Shown: one piece after another, positions 13,061 through 48,595 of the stretch | How positions within the stretch are numbered: the first letter of the stretch is position 1 | Layout of the letters: each line of letters starts with the position of its first letter | Source: Gammaproteobacteria bacterium | GTDB lineage: Bacteria > Pseudomonadota > Gammaproteobacteria > GCA-001735895 | Length of the DNA stretch: 50,382 nt | Assembly: GCA_024232855.1 (NCBI GenBank) | Contig: JAAEPH010000264.1 | Coordinates: 1-50,382 of the forward strand | Reading direction: 5' to 3' | Made by a program: the position numbers and the translations under genes | The notes under the pieces: generated by a model | Database searches by the model: none | What the model was told of the DNA's origin: nothing | Seen by the model: the letters and a program-made list of their open reading frames with translations, nothing else

Positions 13061-15415
13061 ATGAAGCGACAGGATGACACCAACAGCAACAGTTCGACCT
13101 TGAGTATTGAGCGGCGGGTTGAATCCCTGTTGCAGAGATTTGATGGCGCACCCTGCTATGAGACCCAGGGCGAGACATTATTTGTCAACCTGGCCAACCG
13201 GCGTGTTGACAGGAGTCGACTGCCCCGCGAAGCGGTGGACACCTTCCTCGGCGGGCGCGGGTTGAACATGTACCTGCTTTACAACCTGATGGACGAGAAC
13301 CGCCCGGCGCTGGACCCGGACAATCCGTTGATCTTCGGTACCGGCGTTCTCACCGGGTACACCACGGCCGCGGCTCGCGCTAATGTCAGTGGATTATCAC
13401 CCGACAGCAACGCGTTGCTGGACACCAATGCGGGTGACTGGTTTCCGGCCTACATGCGTTTGCATGGCATCGACCACATCGTATTGTTCGGTCTGAATGA
13501 GAATCTGGTACTGATTGAAATCGACGGCGATCAAGTTATTTTCCACGATGCGGAATGCTGGCGGGGCCTCGATAACATGGAATTTACCAAAGCGGTCGAA
13601 GAACATTTCGGAGTCCGCGAGCGCCGCGACATGGCGCTCGCGCGCATCACCTCGGCCGGTGAAAACAAGGTGCTTTGTTCGGGCATCATGGCGGGCCCCA
13701 AGGCCATTTGGGCCCGCGGGGGAGCCGGCGCCAAAATGGGGGCGCTCAACGTCAAAGGCATCATGATCCGGGGCAAGCCCGAAAAACCGGAGCTGAACGA
13801 CGATTTTCGCACCGTCAACCGCACGCTGGGGCGGAAGATTACCGCTTCCAGCGTCGTCAAACACGCACTCAAGACCGTGGGCACCCCGTTTCTGTATAAA
13901 CCGAGCCGGGTCCTGTGCGCTATCGGCGCGCTCAACAATCAAAAAACCTCCTGGACCGATAATCTCGATGCGGATAATTTCGATCGCTATCGAACGGGTA
14001 TGGACGGCTGCCTGAAATGCCCGGTTCACTGCCGGCCGCTGAACGACATGAAACCCGGCGCCAAGGGCGGGTGGGGCGCGGGTGCACTGATCGGCCGCAA
14101 GGGCAACGCCAGCTACGATAGCCAACAATCGAACCTCGAGCATGAAGAGGGTGTGCAGTACCAGGGTGCCGCCGGTGATGGAAGTTTCGACAACTACGAT
14201 GCCGGAGATGGTCCCGAGTACGTGACCCTGGGCAAGTTTGGGCCGGGTATCGGCATCGAATCGCCGCAACAGGTTCTGCGGCTGAACAACATTCTGAATG
14301 ATCTCGGTCTCGATTCGTCCAGCACCGGCGGCGCCATTGCCTGGGCCATGGAACTGTTCCAGCGGGGAATTATCGATATCGACGACACCGGCGGGCTGGA
14401 TCTGAAATGGGGCAACTACGCGGCGGTGGAAAAATTGCTGTTCATGACCGCCAGGCGGCAGGGTTTCGGGGACGTCATCGCCGACTCGGCGCGGGCGGTA
14501 GATACCGGGAAGTACCCGCGCGAAGCGTTGGCATGGCGTATGGCGGTTAAAGGATTGTTTCAATCCGACCCCCACGACAGCCGGATACTCAAGGCCTTTG
14601 CGCTGGGACTCGCGGTGGCGACGCGGGGTATGGATCACCTGCGAAACCGCGTTACGATGGAAATCAACGCCAGAATCAATGACGATGAAGCCTTCAAGAC
14701 CGAACTGTACGGCGGCAAGGTAGCGGCCCGGCCCAACGATTACGAGGGCAAGGAATACGCGGTACGCCGCTGTGAAGATACGTTTGCGGTCGGCGATGCG
14801 GTTGGCATGTGCCGCTTCGATACCAAGCTTTTCAATTCGCCCACGCTGCCCGGCTGCGAGGAATTTGCCGACCATCTCCGCACCCTGACAGGCCTCGATT
14901 TCAGCGCTGACGATCTGCTTCAGATCGGGCGTAACATTACCGGGCTGGAGCGAATGATCAATGCCCGCCGCGGACTTGGCGCTGCAGACGATACCTTGCC
15001 GCAGCGCTGGTTCGATGAACCCGTAGACGCCGGGCCTTTTACCGGAGAGTTTATCGATCGGGATCGGTTCGACGCGATCAAACAGCGTTTTTACGACATT
15101 ACCGGGCTCGATTCCGATGGGCTTCCGCAAACGAAATGGAGGCAGCAGCTGCAGGAAAAGACCACCGGATTCGCAATTTCGCTAACACTGCCGGCAGAAT
15201 GGAAGCCGAAACATTGCGTCCCGGATCAAACTACCAGAAGCCTGCCTGAACTCAGGCAATGGATTGAAGGTCGCTTCCCGGAATGCCGGGACGAGTTGGC
15301 GGATGTTTCGCTCAACTTCGCGGTGAACGGCGAGCTGGTCATCGAAAACCAGGAGTCGGTGGTGCTTCGTTCCGGCGATGACGTGACCCTGGTGCCGGCG
15401 GTGGCGGGTGGATGA
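13061..15415 (+). CDS. tungsten aldehyde:ferredoxin oxidoreductase with C-terminal MoaD/ThiS-like domain
   Basis: This 784-residue protein has the AOR N-terminal tungstopterin domain (about residues 45-270; FLGGRGLN, GVLTG, ARGGAGAKMG). The cluster cysteines C-x2-C-x3-C (GCLKCPVHC, near residue 316) and a distal VGMC (near 583) complete the AOR body to about residue 700. The last 80 residues form a beta-grasp domain ending VTLVPAVAGG, matching the C-terminal diglycine tail of MoaD/ThiS sulfur carriers. AOR oxidises aldehydes to acids with ferredoxin as acceptor, so benzaldehyde to benzoate is a reasonable role here. In Aromatoleum a MoaD-like protein (AorD) is encoded separately; here it is fused. 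Weak RBS. Confidence 0.88.
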   Translation: MKRQDDTNSNSSTLSIERRVESLLQRFDGAPCYETQGETLFVNLANRRVDRSRLPREAVDTFLGGRGLNMYLLYNLMDENRPALDPDNPLIFGTGVLTGYTTAAARANVSGLSPDSNALLDTNAGDWFPAYMRLHGIDHIVLFGLNENLVLIEIDGDQVIFHDAECWRGLDNMEFTKAVEEHFGVRERRDMALARITSAGENKVLCSGIMAGPKAIWARGGAGAKMGALNVKGIMIRGKPEKPELNDDFRTVNRTLGRKITASSVVKHALKTVGTPFLYKPSRVLCAIGALNNQKTSWTDNLDADNFDRYRTGMDGCLKCPVHCRPLNDMKPGAKGGWGAGALIGRKGNASYDSQQSNLEHEEGVQYQGAAGDGSFDNYDAGDGPEYVTLGKFGPGIGIESPQQVLRLNNILNDLGLDSSSTGGAIAWAMELFQRGIIDIDDTGGLDLKWGNYAAVEKLLFMTARRQGFGDVIADSARAVDTGKYPREALAWRMAVKGLFQSDPHDSRILKAFALGLAVATRGMDHLRNRVTMEINARINDDEAFKTELYGGKVAARPNDYEGKEYAVRRCEDTFAVGDAVGMCRFDTKLFNSPTLPGCEEFADHLRTLTGLDFSADDLLQIGRNITGLERMINARRGLGAADDTLPQRWFDEPVDAGPFTGEFIDRDRFDAIKQRFYDITGLDSDGLPQTKWRQQLQEKTTGFAISLTLPAEWKPKHCVPDQTTRSLPELRQWIEGRFPECRDELADVSLNFAVNGELVIENQESVVLRSGDDVTLVPAVAGG

Positions 15416-40774: not shown

Positions 40775-42055
40775 TCAGAAATACCAGGCGAGTTGGGCGA
40801 AAAGCGAAGCGCCGACGGACAAAGGATTCTCGGAAATGTCCGAATCGATGCCGCCAAACTCGGTACCGTCATCCCCATGCGGCAGATTCAGCGCCAGCAA
40901 TAGCTGCAGGTCCTGCTGCAGGTCGTGGCGGCTGAAGACCTGCAATAACGTCGAATCGTCGTCGAGATTTCTGAAGACGCTGGTGGTGAGCAACCATAAC
41001 GGCGTCAGCTCGATGGTTGCCGCGGCCGCCAGGTAGTTTTGCGCAAGTGTAAACAGTTCACCGCGCTCGATGCGCGCCACCAACTCCGGGTTGGCGGCGA
41101 GGGCGAGTGGGTCGTAGTTGCCGTCGTCGATTCCGAAACCGTTGTGAAAGTACTCGATGGTCGTACTCAGGTTGCGCTCCCAGGCGAGCAGGGCGTACGA
41201 CCAGCTCAGCACCGCGCTGGTAAACTGCTCGCCGTTCGAATCCGTGAGCATGAGGTCGCTACGCCATATCGCGTCCGCGATATCGACACTGCCGCCAACG
41301 GCGCCTATGCGCGCGTCGTAGTGGTCGGCGACGAGCAGGTCGAGCTCGCTGGACCCGGAGAAGATGTGGTACTTGAGCGCGAGGCTGGTGGCATCGCTGC
41401 TGACATGACCGTCATCGTCGCGCCGGCCGACCCAGACGGACTGTACATCGTTGCCGCTATCCAGCAGGTACTGCGCATACAGCATGTCGTCACCGGTTTT
41501 GTACTCGGTGTCGATCGCGGCGGGATCGAAGGGATTAAAAAAGTCGACCGGGTTGTAGATTATGCCGTTACCCCAGGTCACGGCCTGGCGACCAATGTTG
41601 AATACCGTCTTGTCGGTGGTACGGCTCAGGTAGAAACGATCCAGCCGATGCGCGATGACACGATCGTCGCGGTCGCTGATGCGGCGGGACAGGTCAAGCA
41701 CGCGGTGGTCATCGTCCACCACCGGCGCACCGCCGAACCCGGGGATCGAGTTCTGTTGTAACAGTTCGAGTTGATCGCCCTGTCTTGCGAGCAACTGGTA
41801 GTCACTATGCCAGCTCCAGTTAGCCGCGCCGCCGGAGAAATTGAGGCGTAGATCGAGGCCGCTGTCAACGGCCGGGTCGTCGATAAATTCCTGCAGCGCG
41901 CTGCCGGCGGGGATATTGGCCACCGTTGCCTGGGGCTTGAAGTGTCCGCGCAAATCGTAGGCCTGCGCATTGCCGCAAGCGATGAGCAGCGCGAGAATGC
42001 CGGTAACCCACCCGCTTGTTGCCGTCTTCGCGGGGATGGATCTACTGTGCTTCAT
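40775..42055 (-). CDS. predicted outer-membrane beta-barrel protein of an ABC envelope operon
   Basis: This 426-residue protein has a signal peptide (cleavage near GNAQAYDLRG) and alternating hydrophobic strands throughout. Its terminal AQLAWYF ends in the aromatic residue recognised by BAM. It carries RQAVTWGNGIIYNPVDFFNPFDP (about residues 165-187), also seen in DUF1302-like and other porin-like proteins. It is the last gene of the operon that begins with a LolA-like periplasmic protein and overlaps the ATPase gene by 14 nt. It is therefore a good candidate for the outer-membrane end of that transport route. Exact family not recognised. Confidence 0.75.
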   Translation of the reverse strand: MKHSRSIPAKTATSGWVTGILALLIACGNAQAYDLRGHFKPQATVANIPAGSALQEFIDDPAVDSGLDLRLNFSGGAANWSWHSDYQLLARQGDQLELLQQNSIPGFGGAPVVDDDHRVLDLSRRISDRDDRVIAHRLDRFYLSRTTDKTVFNIGRQAVTWGNGIIYNPVDFFNPFDPAAIDTEYKTGDDMLYAQYLLDSGNDVQSVWVGRRDDDGHVSSDATSLALKYHIFSGSSELDLLVADHYDARIGAVGGSVDIADAIWRSDLMLTDSNGEQFTSAVLSWSYALLAWERNLSTTIEYFHNGFGIDDGNYDPLALAANPELVARIERGELFTLAQNYLAAAATIELTPLWLLTTSVFRNLDDDSTLLQVFSRHDLQQDLQLLLALNLPHGDDGTEFGGIDSDISENPLSVGASLFAQLAWYF

Positions 42056-42725
42056 CGCTGATGATTTTCCCGTCCTGCATCTTCACCAGGCGCCGCGCGT
42101 AGGCCATCACGCGCTTGTCGTGGGTGGCGATGACGAAGGTGGCCCCGTGGTTTTCATTGAGACTGGCAAACAATCCCATCAGGTGTGCCGCGGCGACGCT
42201 GTCGAGGTTGGCGGTGGGTTCGTCGGCCAGCACCAGGTCGGGTTGCGAAACGATGGCGCGCGCGACCGCGACGCGCTGCTGCTGACCTCCGGATAACTGT
42301 GCCGGGCGGCGGTCCTCCAGGCCTTGAAGACCGACCTCGGCGAGGATAGCGTTCGCCTTGCGCGCACGTTCCGCGGTTGCCACCCCCTGTACTTGCATCA
42401 CGAATTCGACGTTTTCGCGTGCGCTCAGCACCGGGATCAGGTTGTAAGCCTGGAAAACGAAACCGATGTGGTGCAGGCGCATATCGGCGAGCGCACCCCG
42501 CTTGAGCTGATCGATGCGTAGATCGCCCATGCGAATCTCGCCGCTGTCGGGCGTATCGAGCCCGCCGATGGCGTTCAGCAGGGTTGTTTTGCCGGACCCC
42601 GACGGCCCCGACAGGCACACGAACTCACCGGTTTCAATGGTGATATCGACGTGATCGAGGCCGGTTATGATTTCGTCACCCTGGTGGAAGGTTTTACAGA
42701 GTTGGTGGCAGTGTATTGCGCTCAT
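42042..42725 (-). CDS. ABC transporter ATP-binding protein, LolD/MacB-like
   Basis: The protein has 227 residues. Walker A is GPSGSGKTT near 40, the signature is LSGGQQQRVAVARA near 143, Walker B is DLVLADEPTANLDS near 163, and the H-loop is in ATHDKRVMAYA. It is of the LolD/FtsE/MacB class, which powers extrusion or lipoprotein release rather than import. It is encoded 9 bp after the second permease and overlaps the barrel gene, indicating one functional unit. Confidence 0.93.
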   Translation of the reverse strand: MSAIHCHQLCKTFHQGDEIITGLDHVDITIETGEFVCLSGPSGSGKTTLLNAIGGLDTPDSGEIRMGDLRIDQLKRGALADMRLHHIGFVFQAYNLIPVLSARENVEFVMQVQGVATAERARKANAILAEVGLQGLEDRRPAQLSGGQQQRVAVARAIVSQPDLVLADEPTANLDSVAAAHLMGLFASLNENHGATFVIATHDKRVMAYARRLVKMQDGKIISDEAQ

Positions 42726-42734
42726 ATCGCCTCG

Positions 42735-43976
42735 TCAGGTGGAATTCAGTGCCCGCACCGGGTCCAGTTTGGCGGCGCGCCAGGCCGGTAATATGCTGGT
42801 CAGTACGCCAAGTAAAATGACGACCGAATTGGCGAGCAGCAAATCGGAAGAAGTCAGCTTCGGGTACAGCATGCTGCTCGCGCCCATCATCGCCATGCCC
42901 TCGGCGACGACTGAAATATCGAGCCCGCTCTCCAGTGGCTTGATCGTCGCCAGCGCCAGGCCGTTACCGAGGCCGAGGCCGATCAGCAGCAACAGCGTGG
43001 ATTCCATCAGTATCTGGTACAGGATCAGCGCCGGGCGCATGCCGAGCGCCTGGATCAGACCGATTTCACGCACGCGTTCGAATATCGCCATCACCAGCGT
43101 GTTTACCAGTCCGAAGGATAGCGCCAGGAAAATGATGATCACCCAGACCAGTACGAAGCCATCCATCATGTTGAACATCGTGGCGAGGTAGGTGTCGATC
43201 TCGTACCAGGCGCGCACCTGCAGGTCCGCCGGCGCCTGTTGGCGAACCTGCCGATAGAGCGGCTCGATGTCGCGGTAGTCCTCCCCGACGACAATGATTT
43301 GCGAGACGCGGCCCTCGATACGGAGCAACTGCTGCAGGGTATCGCGCGCGGCGTATACATTGAACTCTTCGAGGCCGGGCAATTTGGCGCGGTAAATGCC
43401 GACGATTCTGAAACCACGCTCGCGGATGTTGTTATCTGGATCCTGGCTCATGACGACGACGCGCTTGCCCAGCCGCGTTTCCAGGCGTTCGGCCAGTTTA
43501 GCGCCGATGATGATACCGCTGTCCTTGCGGGATTCGAGGAATCGACCCGCGCTCAGCAGCTCCGGCAGGCCGCTGACATCGGCCTCGGCGGCGGGTTCGA
43601 TACCGACCAGGTTGATACCGCGCGTTTCGCGTTCGCTGGCGATAACCGCCGGCACCCTGATCCGGGTCGCCCAGCGTTTGCTTTCGATGCGCTGCAACAG
43701 CGCCTCGAATTCGCCCGCGGGCTCGGCGATGCTGTTGGCCACGCTTGGGTCGTCGAGAAAATCGGGGTGTTGAATCTGGATATGCCCCGGCAGGTTGTGA
43801 ATACCCTCGTTGAGCATGTCATCGACCATGCCGCGCATCAATGCGGTCATGAATATCATCGCCCATACCCCGACCGCAATCGCGCCCAGCATGATGCCGG
43901 TGCGCCGATGATTGCGCCACAGGTTACGCCACGAAAGGGTTAGCAGTACGCTGAAATGGAGTCTGTGCGCCGCCAT
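42735..43976 (-). CDS. ABC permease, LolC/LolE-like (FtsX domain), second copy
   Basis: This 413-residue permease has one N-terminal helix (about 25-48) after the WRNLWRNHRRT cytoplasmic motif. A large periplasmic MacB-PCD-like domain follows (about 50-280), then three C-terminal helices with the FtsX pattern (VREIGLIQALGMRP near 310). It ends WRAAKLDPVRALNST, the typical tail. It is a paralogue of the next permease; the two probably form a LolCE-type heterodimer with the LolD-like ATPase. Confidence 0.9.
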   Translation of the reverse strand: MAAHRLHFSVLLTLSWRNLWRNHRRTGIMLGAIAVGVWAMIFMTALMRGMVDDMLNEGIHNLPGHIQIQHPDFLDDPSVANSIAEPAGEFEALLQRIESKRWATRIRVPAVIASERETRGINLVGIEPAAEADVSGLPELLSAGRFLESRKDSGIIIGAKLAERLETRLGKRVVVMSQDPDNNIRERGFRIVGIYRAKLPGLEEFNVYAARDTLQQLLRIEGRVSQIIVVGEDYRDIEPLYRQVRQQAPADLQVRAWYEIDTYLATMFNMMDGFVLVWVIIIFLALSFGLVNTLVMAIFERVREIGLIQALGMRPALILYQILMESTLLLLIGLGLGNGLALATIKPLESGLDISVVAEGMAMMGASSMLYPKLTSSDLLLANSVVILLGVLTSILPAWRAAKLDPVRALNST

Positions 43977-43977
43977 G

Positions 43978-45210
43978 TCAGACCGCCCGCATCGCTTCGA
44001 TCGGCTGCAGCCGGTTGAGGCGCAGCGCGGGGTAGATCGCGGCCAGCAGGCTGCCGAGCGCGACGATGACCGGGCCGAGGGTGAGCGAGAGCGGCGATAT
44101 CGCGGGATACATACGATCCGGCAGGTTGAACTTGACCGCCATTTCCTCCATGCCGGGATAAGAGAAGCCGACCACGCTCAGGTAAGCCGTGATGAGGGCG
44201 CCCAGGGTAATACCGAGCAGCAATCCCAGCGCCGTCATCATGCCGGTTTCGAGCATGACCAGGCGCGCCAGGTGAATCGGTTTCAGGCCCAGCGCCATCA
44301 TCGTGCCGAATTCACGGGTGCGCTCCAGCACCGACATCAACTGTGTGTTGAGTACGCTGAATGCGACCAGCACGATGAGCACGATGTACATGAACCAGGC
44401 GCTGGTCATATCGGCCTGTATGGCCTGGCGCAGGCCAGGTTGCAACTCGTTCCAGTCGCGTGGCACGATCCTGGAAGGATCGTCGATGCCTGCCGAGATG
44501 CGCGCCATCAATCCATCGACGTCGTCGATGTGCGCGGCGCGGATGACGATGCTGTGGCCCGCCCGTTGCATCGCGAAGCTGTCCTGGAAGTAACCCAGGT
44601 TGATCTGCGCCATGGCGCGATCGAGGTCGGGGATGCCCGACTCGAAGATTCCGACCACCGTTACCACGCCGGCGGCGAACGATTCGTCGAGGCCGCTGCC
44701 GAGAAAGCTGAGTTCGTCGCCGATGCCGACCTTGAGGTTACGCGCCAGGATTGATCCGATCACGATCTCCTCCTGCGCACCGGGGCCCAAATAGCGCCCC
44801 TCATTCACCAGGCCGGGAAAAGTGGATACCAGTGGCTCGTGTTTGGCATCGACCCCCAGCAGCTGGATGCCGTGGCTGCGCTTGTTGCTGGAGGCGAGCG
44901 CGAACCCGGAAGCACGCGCGCTAATGCTCTCCAGGGCGAGTTCGTCACGCAGTTTTTGCGCGTTGGCGACGATGTCCGCCAGGGTGTAGCGCATCTTCGG
45001 TTGATCCAGGTAGGAGGGATGCTGCAACTGGATATGTCCCGAGAAGGTTTGCAGGCTGTTATCGATCATCATGTCGTAGCTGCCGAATTGCAACGAAATC
45101 GAAAATACCAGTAAGCTGTTGGAGAAGATCATTGCGCCGACCGTAAGCCAGGTGCGTCGCCCGTGTCGCCACAGGTTGCGCCAGGCCATGCGCAGCACGA
45201 CGCTCTTCAC
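43978..45210 (-). CDS. ABC permease, LolC/LolE-like (FtsX domain), first copy
   Basis: This 410-residue permease has the same layout as its neighbour. It opens MAWRNLWRHGRRTWLTVGAM, has a periplasmic domain that includes SGHIQLQHPSYLDQP, and has three C-terminal helices after RTREFGTMMALGLKP near 300. It ends RLNRLQPIEAMRAV. The S/P-GHIQ-[LI]-QHP segment is shared with the paralogue (residues about 58-66), which suggests both bind the same partner. The start overlaps the LolA-like gene by 4 nt. Confidence 0.9.
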   Translation of the reverse strand: MKSVVLRMAWRNLWRHGRRTWLTVGAMIFSNSLLVFSISLQFGSYDMMIDNSLQTFSGHIQLQHPSYLDQPKMRYTLADIVANAQKLRDELALESISARASGFALASSNKRSHGIQLLGVDAKHEPLVSTFPGLVNEGRYLGPGAQEEIVIGSILARNLKVGIGDELSFLGSGLDESFAAGVVTVVGIFESGIPDLDRAMAQINLGYFQDSFAMQRAGHSIVIRAAHIDDVDGLMARISAGIDDPSRIVPRDWNELQPGLRQAIQADMTSAWFMYIVLIVLVAFSVLNTQLMSVLERTREFGTMMALGLKPIHLARLVMLETGMMTALGLLLGITLGALITAYLSVVGFSYPGMEEMAVKFNLPDRMYPAISPLSLTLGPVIVALGSLLAAIYPALRLNRLQPIEAMRAV

Positions 45211-46019
45211 TGGCGCGGATTCCTGAGGTTGGAGAGGGTAAACAGGTTAGCGGATAATTCGACGTCGAAATCGATGGCGTCGATACTCATTTCGGTCCAT
45301 TCCTGTTCCCTTTCGAGCTTGTGCATGCGCATGCGTGTAGCGATGTTGCGGCCATCCATGAGCGCGATTTCGGTGGTGTTCATTTCCTTCACCAGGATGC
45401 CGTCCTGGTCCCAGAATTCCTGGCGCAGCATGATGTAGTCATCGCGAATGACGAGTACTTCCCGGCCCCAGACCACCGCTGCGTCCTCGTGCGGAACCGA
45501 CTCGATGGTGTAAACAAGGTGATCGTCGCGGGTTTCGGTGCCGATCAGGCGATGATCGTACTGATCGATGATGTCGGTCGACTTGCTGATGTCCTTGTTG
45601 GAAAAATCACTGCCCATCCAGCTCTGATTCATCATCGACGGCGGCACCTTGAGGATGCGGTTGATCTTGGGTGAGTAGGTCCACATGCTTTGATCCTGGA
45701 CCAGCGTGCCGTTGCCGGCGTCGCGCCTGGGCTCGGTTACCCGCACCAGCGATAACTTGTCACCCTCGGTCCAGGCCTGCATCGAAAAACTGCGCTGCCA
45801 GTCTTCGCGGTGTATGGTCATGGTCATTTCGGAGTAAGAGGTTACCCCGCGCCAGTGTTCCATGGCGGCGCGAATCAGTTCGCTCGGTTGCGGGGCGTCG
45901 GCCGCCTGCGCGATGCCCGATGCCGGCCCCATCGATAGTGCCAGCAGCATTATCAGGGGTTGCTTAACGCCCGTGATCAAGTTGAATCCTGGTATCGGCA
46001 TTGCCGGTCTTGTCTCCAT
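45207..46019 (-). CDS. periplasmic LolA-like outer-membrane lipoprotein-sorting protein
   Basis: This 270-residue protein has a signal peptide (cleavage near GIAQAADAPQ). It then has a LolA/LolB-type half-barrel: SYSEMTMTIHREDWQRSF near residue 60, VQDQSMWTYSPKINRILKVPPSMMNQSWMGSDFSNKD near 105, and a C-terminal strand ending NLFTLSNLRNPRQ. This subgroup is distinct from housekeeping LolA and commonly accompanies FtsX-type permeases or RND/MmpL exporters. First gene of the operon; probably a periplasmic shuttle for a lipid or lipoprotein between the permeases and the outer membrane. Confidence 0.87.
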   Translation of the reverse strand: METRPAMPIPGFNLITGVKQPLIMLLALSMGPASGIAQAADAPQPSELIRAAMEHWRGVTSYSEMTMTIHREDWQRSFSMQAWTEGDKLSLVRVTEPRRDAGNGTLVQDQSMWTYSPKINRILKVPPSMMNQSWMGSDFSNKDISKSTDIIDQYDHRLIGTETRDDHLVYTIESVPHEDAAVVWGREVLVIRDDYIMLRQEFWDQDGILVKEMNTTEIALMDGRNIATRMRMHKLEREQEWTEMSIDAIDFDVELSANLFTLSNLRNPRQ

Positions 46020-47654: not shown

Positions 47655-48595
47655 ATGCTTCATGCCCGCAGACACTTGCTTCGCGACGGCGGACTGGGTT
47701 GCGCCGCCTATTGTCACGCTAACGCCGAGATCAGCGCCGTCATGTCGGAAGGCGCGGTAGGTGAGGATGTCGCGGCGATGCATACCAACGTGTCGGGCGA
47801 CAAGGCCGATGTCTGGCACTGGACGTCTACGCGTTCGCTACCCTCGCACACGTTAAAGGACGGCCACCTGGTTTACGGGATCGGCGACTACAACAGTAGA
47901 AAGGCCGACAAGGGCGAGAAGCCGACGATCGACAACGACACCAAGAAGCTGAAGCATTCCAAGAAAGGCCAGCCGGCTTATATGAGCTATCGCGACTCCG
48001 TGTCGGGGGATTACGGATCGTCCGAACCGGGTCGAACCCATTTCCAACAGCATGACGCGATACCGATAAGTGATAAAGTCAAGTTCGTCAAGAGCGATAC
48101 CATCCCCTATTCAATCAGTCGCCCATCCACCGGCAGCCGCGCCGATGTCACGGCCCATGCCACGTTTAACGATGAAACCCATCGCTGGACACTGGAGCTG
48201 AGACGTCGGCGTAATACCGGTGATGGCAACGATTACCAGTTCGGTGCTGGTAACAACGCCGGCGCGCCCGCTAATCCGGCCGCGATCGTCGGTGATCCGG
48301 AGAGGGGGCACAGCTGTACCAGACGCATGGTTGCGCTGGCTGTCACCAGGACAAGGGGCAGGGCCTGCTCGACAATGGCAAGTGGGTATTCCCGAGAGTT
48401 CAGCGAGCCTCCGGCGCTACCATTTTGAAGACGGTTCAGCTGAACCGCGAGATGCGCGGCGCGGTGAGATCGTTCATCGCCGAGGAAATGAAAAAAGCGA
48501 GCCCGCGGATGATGCCGGACATCCAGATTACCGAGCAGGAAGCGGAAGATATCGCGAGCTGGTTGCAGCAGCAATTCATGCCCATCGGGAAGTAG
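47655..48595 (+). pseudogene. 5'-truncated, frameshifted haem-binding (ethylbenzene dehydrogenase gamma-like) plus cytochrome c protein
   Basis: The first frame encodes GLGCAAYCHANAE, then GDKADVWHWTSTRSLPSH and VTAHATFNDETHRWTLELRR, matching the EB_dh/cytochrome haem-binding domain of DMSO-reductase family gamma subunits. At the GGGGG run (48304-48308) the frame is lost. The next frame reads GAQLYQTHGCAGCHQDKGQG and continues to a stop at 48595, a c-type cytochrome domain with CxxCH. One added G would join GDPERG to AQLYQTHG and give 313 residues. The usual N-terminus with signal peptide is not found, so a real 5' truncation is likely. There is no molybdoenzyme gene adjacent. Confidence 0.75.

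Follow-up and report, generated by a model that had tools for sequence, protein, structure and literature searches.

Five minus-strand genes packed together in contig JAAEPH010000264.1 of a Gammaproteobacteria bacterium (assembly GCA_024232855.1) probably encode a self-contained, ATP-driven trans-envelope machine that exports a hydrophobic or amphiphilic molecule. The window, that is the whole stretch of DNA analysed, is 50,382 nucleotides long, and the genes run in it from 46019 down to 40775 in the order carrier, permease 1, permease 2, ATPase and outer-membrane barrel. The crossing of the periplasm and the exit through the outer membrane of hydrophobic molecules other than lipopolysaccharide and lipoproteins is largely an open question, and here a single five-gene unit offers candidates for the engine, the carrier and the exit channel. 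The source genome comprises 4.15 Mb in 546 contigs and is 97% complete.

Layout of the operon

The five genes are as follows, where ABC stands for ATP-binding cassette.

45207-46019, minus strand: LolA-like periplasmic carrier, gene 1 (270 aa, PF17131)
43978-45210, minus strand: FtsX/MacB-type permease 1 (Type VII ABC), gene 2 (410 aa, GTG start)
42735-43976, minus strand: FtsX/MacB-type permease 2 (Type VII ABC), gene 3 (413 aa)
42042-42725, minus strand: LolD-like ATPase, gene 4 (227 aa)
40775-42055, minus strand: outer-membrane beta-barrel, gene 5 (426 aa, C-terminal AWYF)

Carrier and permease 1 overlap by 4 bp, the two permeases are separated by 1 bp and permease 2 and the ATPase by 9 bp, while ATPase and barrel overlap by 14 bp provided that the barrel starts at its first ATG. 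A preliminary description made from the letters of the window had proposed five tightly coupled genes of these types, and all five open reading frames (ORFs) were found on the minus strand with this coupling. Judging from the spacing, the genes are presumably read as one transcript. Promoter and terminator consensus scans of the operon gave no more matches than in shuffled sequence. The arrangement goes beyond chance, since remote genomes show the same gene set in the same order.

Co-occurrence and adjacency of the barrel gene

Among 95 genomes comprising near relatives and sampled members of the class, a barrel match was obtained in 30. The barrel gene adjoins the ATPase gene in all 19 strong loci (L052-L070), as far as the contigs run. 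Of the six loci where the barrel match was weak, L072-L074 are complete sets, in L071 the contig ends at the ATPase, L075 combines permease, carrier and barrel, and L076 is taken up below.

The class sample consisted of 276 genomes with a completeness of 90% or more. In 24 of them the carrier profile found 26 matches scoring 219-444 bits, the next match standing at 96 bits, and the barrel profile reached at least 78 bits in 23 genomes. The thresholds of 219 bits (carrier) and 78 bits (barrel) were fixed after the score gap had been seen, and four weaker barrel rows (30-43 bits) were not counted. Carrier and barrel occur together in 22 genomes, the carrier only in 2, the barrel only in 1 and neither in 251, a table whose Fisher value overstates the certainty since related genomes are not independent. 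In the carrier-only genomes (G092 and G154) the carrier lies at contig ends, and in the barrel-only genome (G306) permeases and ATPase are present on a contig that starts inside permease 1. Of this sample's 23 readable loci, 22 show the barrel gene adjoining the others. Among the 26 strong carrier loci, six (the window, L068, L070, L072, L073 and L074) have it adjacent in every case; for the other 20 it is adjacent in 16, is found about 5 kb farther along the strand in L215/L254, and three contigs end first.

Named genomes were scanned with the carrier alignment and 80 of at least 588 loci were kept, several of the contigs among L080-L159 being identical to contigs that seeded the profiles. 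An ATPase with at least 300 nt behind it was present in 65 of these loci, and 63 of the 65 have the barrel; at the two misses 399 and 362 nt of contig remain behind the ATPase. In the remaining 15 loci the contig ends too early, save for L155 (Desulfonema). The co-occurrence of the barrel with the other four genes, on which the preliminary description had depended, is thus borne out, and the barrel as a chance neighbour is ruled out by co-occurrence together with adjacency. The distance matrices of the five proteins correlate at 0.87-0.94 over 58 loci, a comparison with no control that shows joint inheritance only; its carrier alignment held 57 of the 80 LolA-like rows plus that of the window.

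The named-genome loci belong mostly to Pseudomonadota, with Thermodesulfobacteriota and Deferribacterota besides and a few labelled Myxococcota and Acidobacteriota by the records or the tree tool. Culturable relatives with the set include Shewanella schlegeliana, Parahaliea mediterranea and Kineobactrum sediminis. In a plasmid collection that includes chromids there were six carrier matches, all of which were read. Vibrio campbellii and Persicobacter sp. JZB09 (Bacteroidota) each have all five genes, their barrels reaching 100 and 105 bits against the profile, and two further Persicobacter loci have ABC sets in which the gene next to the ATPase matches the barrel profile weakly (15 and 18 bits). 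The gene order varies: in L222-L225 and L227 it is carrier, ATPase, fused double permease and barrel (the fusion scanned in L223), and in L255 it is ATPase, single permease, carrier and barrel. These variants keep the barrel, which was counted in favour of the five genes forming one export machine. No sixth gene is widespread among the loci, the commonest neighbour cluster being found in 10 of 80, and the neighbours gave no clue to the substrate, the largest clusters (10, 9 and 9 of 80 loci) being lineage-specific or broad families.

The outer-membrane barrel

No Pfam family matched the barrel above its cut-off. Its AlphaFold2 model has a predicted local distance difference test score (pLDDT) of 93.8 and a predicted template modelling score of 0.87, and consists of 18 strands by DSSP, counting the broken strand 4 once. 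With the C-terminal AWYF, this is in accordance with the beta-barrel ending in WYF that had been described earlier. In structural comparison the model matched OprD/Occ porins at Z 23.2, with a root-mean-square deviation (rmsd) of 3.1-3.2 over about 300 residues (OpdQ, 3t24: Z 23.2, rmsd 3.2 over 300; 3jty: Z 23.2), AlgE (4afk) at Z 22.2 with rmsd 3.9 over 316, and LamB at Z about 19. Sequence identity to the OprD/Occ and AlgE-type barrels is 6-12%, so that the likeness is one of fold and not of family membership. For Omp85 there was no Pfam match, and no Omp85 entry stood among the fold matches listed, porins ranking first.

One segment of the barrel is exceptionally conserved:

41486-41593, minus strand: hyper-conserved barrel segment, residues 155-190 (GRQAVTWGNG...NPVDFFNPFDP...YKTGDD)

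In this segment 17 of 36 columns are at least 90% conserved, whereas the whole barrel has 60 such columns among 426 (hypergeometric p 4e-7). A barrel alignment omitted 4 of 63 barrel matches, which scored below 150 bits. The segment is mostly a 31-residue loop between strands 5 and 6. In known porins both termini face the periplasm, and if the same holds here the loop would lie on the outer side. Its strong conservation suggests that it may fold into the lumen. Around the GRQ..WG motif in the segment, profile comparison (hhalign) with DUF1302 (PF06980) gave 57% probability over 34 columns. The barrel of the window did not match the DUF1302 profile (gathering cut-off 23.2) at E 0.1; five orthologous barrels matched with E values from 9.7e-5 to 8.7e-4 (19.1-21.9 bits), and one reached 23.3 together with its neighbours.

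Two other assignments of the barrel were rejected. A lipobox-like LIAC in the signal peptide of the window barrel is absent from the other rows of the initial alignment (23 sequences, L062 and fragments omitted); by inspection the barrel was not taken as a lipoprotein, and the LIAC looks incidental in the aligned sequences. The best sequence matches of the barrel in the Protein Data Bank (PDB), short ones of about 40 residues to light-harvesting proteins, were disregarded.

The presence of OprD/Occ uptake porins among the nearest folds brings in an uptake or retrograde route, in which the barrel would take up a hydrophobic nutrient, the carrier would ferry it inward and the ABC transporter would load it into the inner membrane or clear it from there. 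Such a route would also fit the reported requirement of PP_0765/PP_0766 for the use of Tween 20 (PMC10866462) and the genes typical of anaerobic aromatic degradation that the window carries. These aromatic-type genes lie more than 6 kb from the operon, however, and no catabolic gene is widely common beside it. Type VII ABC systems, as far as they are described in PMC12646458, extract, export or signal, and the uptake route is considered unlikely.

Carrier, ABC parts and the housekeeping Lol system

The carrier scored 167.5 bits against PF17131 (LolA_like; E 3.2e-49, cut-off 30), and the same Pfam search gave no match to PF03548, LolA proper. It has an N-terminal signal peptide as judged by inspection, and its sequence relatives in the PDB are 4z48, 9tp6, 3buu and 3bk5. 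The AlphaFold2 model (pLDDT 87.5) gave Z 24.4-26.2 to 9tp6, 4z48, 3bk5 and 3buu, which comprise LolA3, one DUF1329 protein and a pair of LolA_like proteins; the match to 9tp6 (P. gingivalis LolA3) was Z 26.2 with rmsd 2.2 over 224. Against classical LolA or LolB the values were mostly Z about 11-14. Profile score and LolA-like half-barrel fold both place the protein in the LolA_like family, and its modelled structure is far nearer to LolA3/DUF1329 proteins than to LolA.

Permease 1 matched FtsX (61.5 bits) and MacB_PCD (43.8 bits), and permease 2 matched MacB_PCD (64.5 bits) and FtsX (50 bits). The ATPase scored 119.3 bits for ABC_tran, 210.8 bits for DevA and 204.6 bits for LolD, the last two each under its own cut-off. 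PF02687, PF12704 and a separate PF00005 ATPase, all over cut-off, assign these parts to the Type VII (MacB/LolCDE/FtsEX) ABC class. With the lolCE model TIGR02212 (cut-off 362) the permeases gave 97 and 124 bits, below the LolC/LolE threshold. The GHIQ-QHP motif noted in the preliminary description is present in both permeases of the window; among relatives the G-H-x-Q part is kept and the HP is not. The 77 rows of the permease 1 alignment have G in 74, H in 66 and Q in 76, and for the HP have H in 15 and P in 26, while the 74 rows for permease 2 have H in 43 and P in 46.

In the ATPase tree 42 ATPases of the system stand apart from LolD (two), YbbA and MacB with support of 100/97, in a tree with only these four reference rows and long branches. 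The permease tree sets 49 permeases of the system apart from LolC, LolE and the LolC/E of the source genome itself (FastTree support 0.81 for the system clade and 1.0 for the LolC/E clade). With few references and long branches, the trees show a distinct subfamily of ABC parts rather than its exact place.

The source genome carries its housekeeping Lol genes elsewhere. Its only PF03548 LolA match lies on contig C48, PF03550 LolB on contig C476, and LolC/E on contig C146 at 504 bits (cut-off 362) with a LolD-like ORF beside it. One copy of LolC/E was found, which points either to a homodimer or to a second gene missing from the assembly. The operon has no PF03550 match, its fifth gene being the barrel. 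The preliminary description had set the operon apart from the housekeeping Lol system, which was supported; that it might be the housekeeping system is ruled out by the Lol genes elsewhere and the separate ABC clades. By profile and tree, the operon proteins are Lol-like rather than members of the Lol families.

The LolCDE-like architecture nevertheless raises a second lipoprotein-sorting route, where the ABC transporter would extract particular lipoproteins, the carrier would deliver them and the barrel would place them in or through the outer membrane; a similar Borrelia cluster has been proposed to serve lipoproteins or another non-polar ligand (PMC13078400). Among the 80 loci no lipoprotein gene recurs widely beside the operon, and the carrier reaches Z 24-26 to LolA3/DUF1329 proteins compared to about 12-14 to LolA. 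Deletion of lolA3 in Flavobacterium gave no phenotype in the account of PMC11885536, and a barrel of porin type with its long conserved loop would offer a folded lipoprotein a poor exit. This route is likewise given a low probability.

RND and MMPL forms

The same genome carries a parallel cluster of TetR, MMPL, LolA_like and beta-barrel genes on contig C410 (L046:8237-13160). The MMPL protein of this cluster also matches a sterol-sensing domain. In the class sample, 20 loci have weaker carrier matches (70-96 bits), and 18 of them have a match to MMPL or to the resistance-nodulation-division (RND) family within the stretch. In 16 of 21 weak-carrier rows the ORF directly behind the carrier is on the same strand, measures 393 aa or more and has an aromatic last residue; 7 of these 16 match the C410-type barrel profile, and three others that were scanned are DUF1302. 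A plasmid of Haliovirga abyssi (Fusobacteriota) has MMPL, LolA_like and, two genes on, a member of the window's barrel family (L258:7839-8873, 98 bits). In Ilyobacter the carrier is found with a 417-aa ORF ending in RYSF, which has no profile match, and an RND gene.

The LolA_like carrier and barrel pair is thus commoner than either engine. Distant carriers pair with MMPL/RND and usually precede a barrel, so that carrier and barrel look like a constant core with an interchangeable energiser, and the barrels across the ABC and RND forms are, at the level of their sequences, not all demonstrably homologous. A wider class of envelope machines is put forward tentatively, at somewhat less than even chances: a LolA_like carrier and its own barrel would form the core, the engine would swap between a Type VII ABC transporter (with paired, fused or single permease) and an MMPL/RND pump, and the barrel would replace LolB as direct receiver of the cargo and move it to the surface. 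It may equally be, with the same reserve, that the window operon is the ABC form of this class and that its genome also carries the RND form. If true, the class would unite the LolA_like/LolA3, DUF1329, DUF1302, MMPL and LolCDE-like annotations, and it predicts that the barrel substitutes for LolB.

The occurrence of RND versions with a DUF1302 or other barrel beside the carrier, together with the export phenotypes reported for RND systems (PMC6394551), was counted in support of export. AmeABCD is reported to export Nile Red and to protect against monoterpenes (PMC6394551), which would also suit the efflux of toxic hydrophobes, for instance terpenes or solvents, by a pump acting on many compounds rather than on one endogenous lipid. 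No regulator is widely common beside the ABC form, in contrast to the genome's MMPL cluster with its TetR gene upstream, and the strong conservation of the barrel loop suggests a definite cargo. Efflux of this kind is therefore regarded as improbable, even more so than the lipoprotein and uptake routes.

Proposed mechanism

In the favoured export mechanism, permease 1, permease 2 and a pair of ATPase subunits would form a heterodimeric Type VII ABC transporter that lifts the molecule from the outer leaflet of the inner membrane by cytoplasmic ATP hydrolysis. This step is modelled on LolCDE, which extracts lipoproteins, and on YbbAP, for which other hydrophobic compounds have been proposed (PMC12646458). 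The LolA-like half-barrel would shield the molecule across the periplasm, and the 18-stranded barrel, not a LolB-type lipoprotein, would accept it and pass it into or across the outer membrane. The pairing of carrier and barrel is modelled on AmeABCD (PMC6394551) and on the predicted complex of PP_0765-PP_0766 (PMC10866462). The conserved loop between strands 5 and 6 may line or gate the lumen of the barrel. From these features we infer the direction of export, the class of cargo, the hand-over from carrier to barrel and the role of the loop.

Several observations weigh against export by a five-gene unit and its extension to the RND forms. Nothing was recognised at the weak barrel locus L076, the sets of L136 and L132 are rearranged or interrupted, and at L256 the barrel profile matched weakly (41 bits) in the absence of a carrier. 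In Desulfonema magnum the profiles matched neither permease, ATPase nor barrel in the 10 kb or so downstream of a carrier relative (L155:10001-10771, 40% identity). The modelled barrel fold stands closest to OprD/Occ uptake porins and to AlgE, which are tied within about 1 Z, and the apparent sequence kinship of the barrel with DUF1302 is restricted to the 34-column motif. Profile comparison of the window barrel with the MMPL-linked barrel of C410 gave a probability of 1.4%, no significant kinship, and in 5 of the 21 weak-carrier rows the carrier is not directly followed by an ORF of 250 aa or more on its strand. For PP_0765/PP_0766, the closest studied DUF1302/DUF1329 pair, the need for Tween 20 growth as reported in PMC10866462 may also fit uptake.

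Surroundings in the window

The upstream neighbour of the operon is an EamA transporter gene about 0.5 kb away and the downstream neighbour is a DUF1631 gene. Positions 3183-34354 hold genes for a BadF/BcrA-type ATPase, a 2-hydroxyglutaryl-CoA dehydratase D-type protein, enoyl-CoA hydratase, aldehyde ferredoxin oxidoreductase, molybdopterin oxidoreductase and Fe-S proteins, which are gene types used in anaerobic breakdown of aromatics or hydrocarbons. The aldehyde ferredoxin oxidoreductase at 13061-15415 has a C-terminal ThiS-family domain (residues 723-784), possibly an unusual fusion. An ethylbenzene-dehydrogenase-type domain is encoded at 47655-48428. In several relatives a gene set running from a periplasmic binding protein to an ABC ATPase lies convergent to the barrel (L052:5914-8521, L060:5412-8106); it is absent there in the window.

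Comparison with known systems

The operon resembles LolABCDE of E. coli in its FtsX/MacB-fold permeases, LolD-like ATPase and LolA-fold periplasmic carrier. It differs from LolABCDE in its separate ABC clades, in a carrier of PF17131/LolA3 type, in the 18-stranded barrel in place of LolB and in the clustering of all five genes. YbbAP-TesA of E. coli, for which extraction of hydrophobic compounds is proposed (PMC12646458), has a hydrolase partner and a ten-helix permease, and neither carrier nor outer-membrane barrel.

AmeABCD of Castellaniella defragrans consists of an HAE3 RND pump, a DUF1329 protein of the LolA superfamily, a DUF1302 barrel and a further periplasmic protein; its loss is reported to raise Nile Red accumulation and to lower monoterpene tolerance (PMC6394551). 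In P. putida, PP_0765 (DUF1302) and PP_0766 (DUF1329) are predicted to form a complex and are reported as required for growth on Tween 20 (PMC10866462). AmeABCD and PP_0765/0766 with PP_2018/2019 share with the operon a LolA-superfamily protein and a barrel served by a dedicated inner-membrane energiser. Their DUF1302 barrels have the short GRQ..WG motif in common with the window barrel and no wider homology, and they use an RND pump with a further periplasmic protein whereas the operon has an ABC transporter.

Lol-like carriers have also been proposed for products other than lipoproteins, namely aryl polyenes (PMC8253772) and flexirubin (PMC11885536). ApeL/ApeM/ApeN and LolA2/LolB2 are similar to the operon in that a Lol-like carrier is proposed to bring a hydrophobic product to the outer membrane; they differ in the RND energiser of Ape, in a LolB-like acceptor instead of a barrel and in their location in biosynthetic clusters.

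A set of ABC transporter, LolA_like carrier and porin-like barrel was not found described in open-access papers, most subscription journals and bioRxiv preprints lying outside the search. The RND analogues are already published, as is the Borrelia cluster BBJ23-BBJ29 (2026), the closest published set, with a Type VII ABC transporter, a LolA-like protein and an Omp85 barrel and a proposed role for lipoproteins or another non-polar ligand (PMC13078400). It is similar to the operon in bringing the Type VII ABC transporter, LolA-like protein and a dedicated barrel into one cluster. By its description it is set apart by an Omp85/BamA-type barrel, a single homodimeric permease, extra TPR proteins and a range of spirochaetes only as far as described. 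The window operon thus differs from the Borrelia set in barrel type, in its paired permeases and in taxonomic range.

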